From the IMG/VR virus record IMGVR_UViG_3300023223_000589, positions 1-50,978 of that record: a stretch of DNA of 50,978 nucleotides; one strand, 5' to 3'. Every line of letters begins with the position of its first letter. Position 1 is the first letter of the stretch. This stretch comes from a virus. The notes beneath the pieces were generated by a model. The model saw only the letters and a list, made by a program, of their open reading frames with translations. It had not been told where the DNA came from and searched no databases. Both the position numbers and the translations under genes were made by a program. This document shows, piece by piece, positions 34,734 to 50,795 of the stretch.

Positions 34734-34768
34734 TCTTCATAAAGAGTCTATCTCACTCATAAATCTTG

Positions 34769-34798
34769 CCCCTGGTTCTTTGGATCAGGGGTTTTTTT
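34769..34798 (+). terminator. Rho-independent terminator
   Basis: CCCCTG (34769-34774) pairs with CAGGGG (34786-34791), followed by seven T. It closes the small-gene operon before the next promoter. Confidence 0.88.
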
Positions 34799-34823
34799 AT
34801 TTTATATAAAAGTTGAAATGTTA

Positions 34824-34864
34824 CTTTAGGTTTGTTGACAACTACCTTTAAGTTTGTGTATTAT
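34824..34864 (+). promoter_or_regulatory. Promoter with paired 12-bp operator-like repeats
   Basis: TTGACA (34835-34840) and TATTAT (34859-34864) are separated by 18 bp, a good sigma70-type promoter. CTTTAGGTTTGT (34824-34835) and CTTTAAGTTTGT (34846-34857) are direct repeats 22 bp apart, about two helix turns, flanking the -35. They are probably operator half-sites for an unknown regulator. Confidence 0.72.
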
Positions 34865-34871
34865 TTGAAAA

Positions 34872-34990
34872 GTTAGACATATATAAAACTGCAAAATATT
34901 TTGAAAAACACCCCACCCTCAATAGAGGTTCATTTTTGCCTTTCGGCTTATATGTCTAACGCCCTTTAATGGGGGTGGGTCTATTTTTTT
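34872..34990 (+). ncRNA. Structured leader RNA with pseudoknot-like pairing
   Basis: GTTAGACATATA (34872-34883) pairs exactly with TATATGTCTAAC (34949-34960). CCCACCCTC (34912-34920), inside that loop, pairs with GGGGGTGGG (34971-34979) outside it, nine pairs with one G-T; a GCC-TTTC-GGC hairpin (34938-34947) lies between. The second stem is followed by a T-rich run (34980-34990). The pairings interlock, so they form a pseudoknot or alternative states. It sits between a strong promoter and the methylase gene, like a riboswitch or attenuator, but matches no class I know. Confidence 0.6.
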
Positions 34991-35006
34991 GAGAGAGAGG
35001 CCGATT

Positions 35007-35645
35007 ATGGCTAAAAATAAATTGAGAGTTTTAATAGGATGTGAATTTTCTGGAGTTGTCAGAAGGGCATTTAGAGCCCGGGGCCATGATGCTTGGAGTT
35101 GTGATTTATTGCCCAGTGACGACAATAGCCCCTTCCACCTCCGGGGTGACCTCCGGGGTGACCTCCGGGGTGACCTCCGGGGTGAATGGGATTTATTTAT
35201 AGCCCATCCCCCTTGTACGTTCTTATGTAGCTCTGGCCTTCATAGAAATAAAAACAATCCGGAGCGGGTAAAAGAGACAGGAAAAGCTATTGAATTCGTG
35301 AAATTGTTATTGGATTCACCTATCAAAAAAATAGCTCTTGAAAACCCAATTGGATGCATATCAACCAAAATAAGAAAGCCAGAACAAATAATTCAACCTT
35401 ATCAATATGGCCATAACGCTAGTAAATCTACCTGTTTTTGGCTTAAAAACTTACCTCTTTTGAACTATACAAAATGTGTTGAGCCGAGGGTGGTTTTTCA
35501 AAACGGTAAACCTTATATGAGGTGGGATAATCAGACCGATTCCGGCCAAAATAGGCTTCCACCCACTGAGGATCGTTGGGCTTTAAGGTCTATCACCTAT
35601 CAAGGGATTGCCGAGGCTATGGCTGAACAATGGGGAGGGGAATAA
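35007..35645 (+). CDS. C5-methyltransferase-like protein with expanded LRGD repeat
   Basis: 212 aa from ATG 35007 after AGAGAGG; the open frame extends to 34989. VLIGCEFSGVVRRAFRARGHD is a Rossmann AdoMet-binding start, and HPPC (67-70) is the catalytic-type P-C motif. Phage genes of this type are usually called DNA cytosine methyltransferases, though they are short and their activity is rarely shown. Residues 45-60 are four perfect-unit repeats, LRGD three times then LRGE, from a 12-bp tandem repeat, in place of ordinary sequence before the catalytic loop. The repeat may affect activity. Confidence 0.7.
   Translation: MAKNKLRVLIGCEFSGVVRRAFRARGHDAWSCDLLPSDDNSPFHLRGDLRGDLRGDLRGEWDLFIAHPPCTFLCSSGLHRNKNNPERVKETGKAIEFVKLLLDSPIKKIALENPIGCISTKIRKPEQIIQPYQYGHNASKSTCFWLKNLPLLNYTKCVEPRVVFQNGKPYMRWDNQTDSGQNRLPPTEDRWALRSITYQGIAEAMAEQWGGE
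35138..35185 (+). repeat. 12-bp tandem repeat, four perfect units
   Basis: Four identical copies of CCTCCGGGGTGA lie end to end within the methylase-like gene. The unit is a multiple of three, so changes in number keep the frame. Perfect identity suggests recent expansion or ongoing variation. Confidence 0.95.
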
Positions 35646-36520
35646 TGAGATCTAGAAATATAAAGCCTGGTGTAACTAAAAATGAAGATTTGGCTGATTT
35701 ACCATATGAAGCAAGATTATTATTCTGTTGGCTCCCTATGATGGCAGATTGGGAAGGCCGGCTAGAGGACAGGCCAAGGAAAATAAAAGCTGAATTACTA
35801 CCATTTGATAATGTAGATTCAGATCAGTTATTAACGGAACTACATCGGAAGGGCTTCATCATTAGATATGAAGTTGAGGGTTATGGTAAATTTATCTGGA
35901 TTCCAAATTTTAAAAAACACCAACACCCACATAAACAAGAGAGGGATAAACCGTCGGAAATACCAGAATTTAACTCAGAAAGTCATATTAACATCGATAA
36001 CGGAGTGATAACGGAAGAACTTCGGAAGTACGTCGGAAGTAAACGGGCTGATTCCCTTATACTGATTCCTGATACCGTATTCCTGAAAGATGGTGAAAAC
36101 GGCGCCGCCGGCGAATCTCTCACCGATGGTTTCACCAACACCAAACCAAAAAAACCAGAATTCGACGTTACAGCCATTCACAGGGTATTACAGTTCTTTT
36201 CAACGGAAATAAGGTTCACAGCCTCAAATTCGGCAAATCTACATTTCATTGAATTGGCCCTAAAAGCCGGAATTCCAGAGGAAAACCTAATTTTATCCAT
36301 AGAAAACTATAAAAAGCGCAAGGTTTTAGATGATGACGATCAAAAATTTTGGGTTGGGGCTAAGAAGTTTTTCGATCCAGACCATATTAATTTTTGCTTA
36401 TTAGATTCATATTTAGCCCAAAAAAAGACGGAAAAACAGGAAGAAGACGATAATCTAGACAAAATGCTAAAAGATGTCATGGAGAGAAAGAGTAAAGAAA
36501 ATGCCTCAAAACAACGATAA
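35645..36520 (+). CDS. Replication initiation-like protein (winged-helix N-terminus)
   Basis: 291 aa from ATG 35645 after GGGAGGGG (TAATG overlap). The first 110 residues, NIKPGVTKNEDLADLPYEARLL, WEGRLEDRPRKIKAELLPFD and FKKHQHPHKQE, match a family of phage replication proteins with an N-terminal winged helix (lambda O-like or replisome-organiser-like). The C-terminus is longer and helical. It probably recruits replication machinery at the origin. Start is supported by the ribosome-binding site. Confidence 0.72.
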   Translation: MRSRNIKPGVTKNEDLADLPYEARLLFCWLPMMADWEGRLEDRPRKIKAELLPFDNVDSDQLLTELHRKGFIIRYEVEGYGKFIWIPNFKKHQHPHKQERDKPSEIPEFNSESHINIDNGVITEELRKYVGSKRADSLILIPDTVFLKDGENGAAGESLTDGFTNTKPKKPEFDVTAIHRVLQFFSTEIRFTASNSANLHFIELALKAGIPEENLILSIENYKKRKVLDDDDQKFWVGAKKFFDPDHINFCLLDSYLAQKKTEKQEEDDNLDKMLKDVMERKSKENASKQR

Positions 36521-48470: not shown

Positions 48471-48547
48471 TGGACAACCCCGCCCCATATGATTATAATC
48501 TTAAATGTATATCTCATCTTTATACTATTGAAAAGTTAGGAAAATAA
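48470..48547 (+). CDS. Possible 25-aa peptide
   Basis: ATG 48470 overlaps the previous stop and the frame ends at TAA 48545-48547, five bases before the next ATG. The nucleotides 48526-48541 (TATTGAAAAGTTAGGA) match the conserved leader seen after the operator promoters, so this stretch may be a leader rather than a gene. Confidence 0.3.
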   Translation: MDNPAPYDYNLKCISHLYTIEKLGK

Positions 48548-50470: not shown

Positions 50471-50540
50471 AAGGTAGCATAAATACTATAAAAGAGCAAA
50501 TGAGATTCTTGGCTTTAGCTAGGTTTGACTGTGATTAGAA

Positions 50541-50795
50541 GAAATGAGCGCATATTGTGGTGAATGTGCATTTAACGCTTAAAAACGATGGTGTTATATA
50601 ATAAAGTGCGTTTACAGCTCAGAAATGAGGATTGTTTGACAAAATGAGCGTATATTACGTGAAATGTGCGTTTAAAGCCTAAAAACGATGGTCGCTTGAT
50701 GAGAATGTGCGATTTTAGGCTAAAAATGAGGTTTTTATGATATTTTGCAGGTTTTTTAGGATATTTTATATAAAATGTGGCTTTTTAGGGCTTAA
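50541..50795. repeat. Iteron-like direct repeats
   Basis: Degenerate direct copies of AATGTGCGTTTAAAGCNTAAAAAC: starts near 50561, 50601, 50661, 50702 and, weaker, 50772. A second motif, AAATGAGCGNATATT, occurs at 50542-50556 and 50642-50656, exactly 100 bp apart. No gene covers them. The copies suggest protein-binding iterons of a replication origin or packaging region. Confidence 0.65.

Follow-up and report, generated by a model that had tools for sequence, protein, structure and literature searches.

Does the leader that precedes a methylase-like gene and a replication gene in a tailed-phage record act as a switch and, if so, of what kind? The record comprises 50,978 bases of viral DNA, all of which were analysed (the window), and its terminase shares 34-37% identity with the best-ranked known-phage matches, which are mostly from Vibrio phages. 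A preliminary description had placed here a promoter, repeats, two interlocking stems and a T-run, and each of these elements indeed lies where it had been placed. The interpretation of the leader as a switch fared less uniformly: a strong promoter and a leader structured beyond chance bear it out, whereas the exclusivity of the stems, the terminator and the link to the methylase do not. From the sequence we tentatively favour a 5'-terminal H-type pseudoknot in the leader of the methylase-Rep operon that would act on mRNA stability or translation.

The transcription unit

The unit and its surroundings contain the following features:

34767..34799, plus strand: intrinsic terminator (terminator at 34769-34791), strong (d = +46.8), ending the upstream transcript
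34824..34835, plus strand: candidate operator copy 1, CTTTAGGTTTGT, touching the -35
34835..34864, plus strand: sigma-70-type promoter TTGACA-18-TATTAT, near-consensus (11/12)
34846..34857, plus strand: candidate operator copy 2, CTTTAAGTTTGT, within the promoter spacer
35007..35645, plus strand: DNA-methyltransferase-like gene, phrog_757 (3e-60)
35645..36520, plus strand: replication initiation protein gene, phrog_16167 (1.7e-43)

Insulated by the upstream terminator, the unit begins afresh at the leader and runs in the order terminator, promoter, leader, Shine-Dalgarno, methylase-like gene and replication-initiation gene. The promoter had been called strong, and TTGACA-18-TATTAT is one of just two sites in the window that score 11/12; transcription is predicted to start at ~34871. 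The paired 12-bp operators of the preliminary description are likewise present as putative operators, direct repeats 22 bp apart that overlap the -35 and the spacer, and at other positions in the window their motif occurs at chance frequency only. Also as described, a methylase and a replication gene lie directly downstream of the leader. The putative name methylase for 35007..35645 comes solely from PHROGs, and the protein found no match in Pfam, NCBIfam or PDB sequences.

Just 3' of the leader -10 sits TTGAAAAGTTAG, whose sole other exact copy (48528-48539) is preceded by a TATACT box; S1 and S2, the stems of the leader, were looked for downstream of that copy and are absent there.

Two crossing stems

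The transcribed leader would contain the following elements:

34872..34883, plus strand: S1 5' arm, GTTAGACATATA, at the predicted transcript 5' end
34912..34928, plus strand: S2 5' arm, continuous over 34912-34921 and reaching 34928 past one mismatch
34938..34947, plus strand: small hairpin GCC-TTTC-GGC, in the loop crossing S1
34949..34960, plus strand: S1 3' arm, TATATGTCTAAC, in exact 12-bp pairing with the 5' arm
34961..34976, plus strand: alternative local hairpin GCCCUU-UAAU-GGGGGU, weak (~-6.5 kcal/mol)
34963..34979, plus strand: S2 3' arm, continuous over 34970-34979 and starting at 34963 if extended
34980..34990, plus strand: tail, UCUAUUUUUUU, an imperfect U-tract (nT 2.76) or a U-rich ribosome landing site
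34991..35000, plus strand: Shine-Dalgarno, GAGAGAGAGG

The first stem, S1, is a perfect 12-bp helix as had been claimed, and its 5' arm opens at the predicted +1/+2. The G+C-rich second stem, S2, has the expected 9-bp core, CCCACCCTC/GGGGGTGGG (34912-34920/34971-34979, one G-U), which becomes 10 continuous base pairs once A34921-U34970 is added and, if extended to 34928/34963, pairs 16 of 17 positions with one A-A mismatch. It had further been described as ending in a T-run; the pairing is there, but TCTA separates the stem from T7 (34984-34990). The U-tract and the Shine-Dalgarno are no more than 21 nt away from S2.

The two stems cross, with the S2 5' arm inside the S1 loop and the 3' arm beyond it. 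Scored as a crossing pair over the entire window and both its strands, S1 and S2 come first with 52, the runner-up reaching 47; when the local 139 bases were dinucleotide-shuffled 3000 times, no shuffle matched them. By crude pseudoknot energy the site is again the best place in the window, and 0 of 1000 are as good.

Two smaller elements lie among the arms. A perfect 12-bp palindrome, CAAAATATTTTG, occupies 34892-34903, ~20 bases into the leader and between the S1 and S2 arms. A TTG open reading frame of 7 codons (LPFGLYV, 34936-34959), with AGAGG ahead of it in the S2 5' arm and a stop codon that falls within the S1 3' arm, is a weak possible leader peptide.

Predicted folding of the leader

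S1 had been thought to trap the 5' half of S2, so that the stems would be mutually exclusive. In fact S1 encircles this half without pairing with it. Since S1 and S2 have no nucleotide in common and are compatible as one pseudoknot, S1 alone does not exclude S2. The geometry is of the H-type, two crossing stems with loops of 28 and 20-27 nt and a junction of 2-9 nt, or 2 nt with extended S2. Loops of 28 and 20 nt are able to bridge such helices, and a 2-nt junction is typical of good H-type pseudoknots.

Stem energies are -17.5 kcal/mol for S1 and -29.9 kcal/mol for extended S2. With a rough pseudoknot penalty of 9.6 kcal/mol, a value from general knowledge, S1 plus extended S2 reaches ~-38 kcal/mol and S1 plus the 10-bp S2 ~-31 kcal/mol. 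On these crude energies both stems in the same molecule appear to be favoured over either alone, and the leader can very probably fold into an unusually long pseudoknot. Its minimum free energy is only moderately low (z -2.27) because a nested fold is unable to use both stems. At 34990, the nested folds with S1 only (-29.8 kcal/mol) and S2 only (-30.4 kcal/mol) are nearly isoenergetic, and the favoured one switches as the transcript lengthens. The Shine-Dalgarno is predicted to be somewhat more buried, by GGUCU...AGGCC, in the S1 fold than in the S2 fold; this difference, a modest one, would let S2 favour translation.

Search for relatives

The preliminary description could name no known class for the leader, and cmscan against Rfam 15 agrees, with no family at gathering score and no persuasive match when E was relaxed to 10. 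The sole Rfam match of the record is its single tRNA gene, tRNA-Arg (TCT), at 864-936. Comparison of the leader with phages and plasmids by blastn returned short AT-rich matches only (best E 0.05), which we take as chance. Scans of viral contigs for exact S1 and S2 patterns, to which diverged copies are invisible, gave no leader relative; one 17-mer match and 12 S2-pattern matches proved unrelated on inspection. A genome scan for the S2 3' arm yielded 4 matches, by count alone about the chance number for a 19-mer, and a single-sequence covariance model run over 96 sources recovered only itself. No leader homologue from which covariation could be read was found in the collections searched, and within these the leader is an orphan, one example without comparative support.

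The neighbouring proteins are unevenly represented. Relatives of the methylase were found at 80 loci (best 63% identity) and of Rep at 1 locus; the terminase has a relative on one 5.5-kb contig at 67%, and relatives of the RecT-like protein and of a 184-aa protein were sought and none found. Upstream regions were compared for 78 methylase loci, 77 from the methylase relative search and one from a further locus (L082). At most of these loci the methylase gene overlaps the gene before it or directly adjoins it, and it usually lies within an operon. A single crossing pair, of score 45, occurs upstream of the 78 genes, where about one at 40 or above is expected by chance, so that no comparable leader structure exceeds chance there. 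From this comparison it follows that the leader is part of this operon and not of the methylase family; no evidence links it to the methylase in particular.

Within the methylase gene itself, 35125-35184 is a tandem 12-bp repeat, ACCTCCGGGGTG, that encodes (LRGD)n; this region has short 86-91% matches in two phages, one of Pseudanabaena and one of Vibrio. The record also holds, at 1799-2551, a second methyltransferase that resembles adenine-specific DNA methylases (PRK13699, CcrM), below curated cut-offs.

Possible roles of the leader

In the preliminary description the GC-rich stem served as a terminator, which bears on the reading that we rank second, transcription attenuation. Here S2 with the U-tract would terminate, S1 with the hairpin 34961-34976 would form the antiterminator state, and whether the methylase-Rep operon is read would depend on folding kinetics or on a factor from phage or host. 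The leader resembles intrinsic-terminator attenuators in that a G+C-rich stem and then a T-run precede the first gene, with T7 within 4 nt of the stem; in addition, the two nested states differ little in energy around 34979-34990, and S1 is able to form before S2. Yet the standard score rates S2 poorly as an intrinsic terminator (d -25.8, nT 2.76, against +46.8 at 34769-34791): it lacks a good U-tract straight after the stem, UCUA displaces the U7, and the loop is large (34-48 nt), whereas at the phage's clear terminators T-runs directly abut short hairpins. S1 is moreover no shared-base antiterminator, since it does not compete with S2 for any base; the weak hairpin 34961-34976 is the sole element found that does. 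A scan for leader peptides gave only short open reading frames with poor starts. Altogether, we consider attenuation a possible but unlikely account of the leader. A new phage attenuator class, responsive to a phage protein or metabolite, in which the 5'-terminal stem topologically gates the distant terminator stem through the pseudoknot and not through shared bases, seems to us very unlikely.

Attenuation is followed in our ranking by a role of the DNA or no role at all. A regulator of the promoter might bind to the inverted 12-mers and to the direct repeats, with the RNA fold incidental. The spacing of the direct repeats on the promoter and the position of the inverted 12-mers, at +1 and +78 and unique within the window, suit this reading, which nevertheless leaves unexplained why S2 crosses S1, why it contains G-U pairs and why stem, U-tract and Shine-Dalgarno follow one another in this order, and we judge it improbable. 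Functionless stems that arose by coincidence would agree with the absence of phylogenetic support and are still less probable, given that no shuffle equalled the pair, that nothing in the window outscores it on either strand and that it lies at the predicted start of a transcription unit. Lowest of all we place a metabolite riboswitch, for example one sensing AdoMet, that controls the methylase. A pseudoknotted leader that precedes a methylase-like gene and matches no known class would fit, and the preQ1 and SAM-II riboswitches are H-type pseudoknots in 5' leaders near the Shine-Dalgarno. However, this leader is unmatched by such Rfam families (E up to 10), has far longer stems and lacks a conserved core; the methylase relatives are without the leader, no conserved ligand pocket is definable, and the leader is a single example. 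With no leader relatives found, a new metabolite-sensing riboswitch is unproven, and it is more likely that the leader influences how stable the mRNA is or how it is translated, or that it serves as operator for a protein.

A pseudoknot that acts on stability or translation is ranked first because the stems are compatible and S2 is weak as a terminator. We infer that the RNA is made, folds in this manner and acts as follows. After initiation at ~34871, S1 would close once 34960 has been transcribed, and S2 would then close beside it, giving, with the 2-nt junction of the extended form, a rod of ~28 base pairs. Such a rod would lock the 5' end of the transcript and leave U7 and the Shine-Dalgarno immediately downstream. 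The pseudoknot would then most likely act post-transcriptionally, guarding the 5' end against decay and setting ribosome access or standby; possibly, it serves as an operator for a phage RNA-binding protein. In this way the leader may tune expression of the operon.

Comparison with known phage leaders

The nearest functional parallel, by analogy and with no membership claimed, is gene 32 of T4 and RB69, a phage replication gene whose leader contains a 5'-terminal mRNA pseudoknot that is a translational operator (PMC535899). Each pseudoknot lies towards the 5' end of its leader and precedes the Shine-Dalgarno (PMC535899). The gene 32 pseudoknot, however, spans ~28 nt and that of the present leader ~108 nt, the gene 32 product is an Ssb protein, and the present leader has no run of UUAAA repeats between pseudoknot and start. 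By position, the nearest parallel is HK022 putL, a structured antiterminator RNA that takes up roughly the first 70 nt after a phage promoter (PMC9378689); again we claim no membership, and for neither system a sequence relation to the leader. Both HK022 putL and our leader are structured RNAs directly after a phage promoter, but put consists of two nested stem-loops and a short triplex and is without crossing 12/16-bp stems. If functional, the long 5'-terminal pseudoknot would enlarge the small set of RNA leaders known to govern replication operons in phages, and its compact size suits it to direct reporter and transcription tests.

Other features of the record

The very start of the record carries an 80-nt inverted repeat (1-80 and 278-357, 99% complementary, 197-nt spacer), possibly a contig-end assembly artefact or a genuine terminal hairpin. 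Near its end, iteron-like direct repeats at 50535-50740 (58 nt at 79%; 37-nt units) possibly mark a replication origin.
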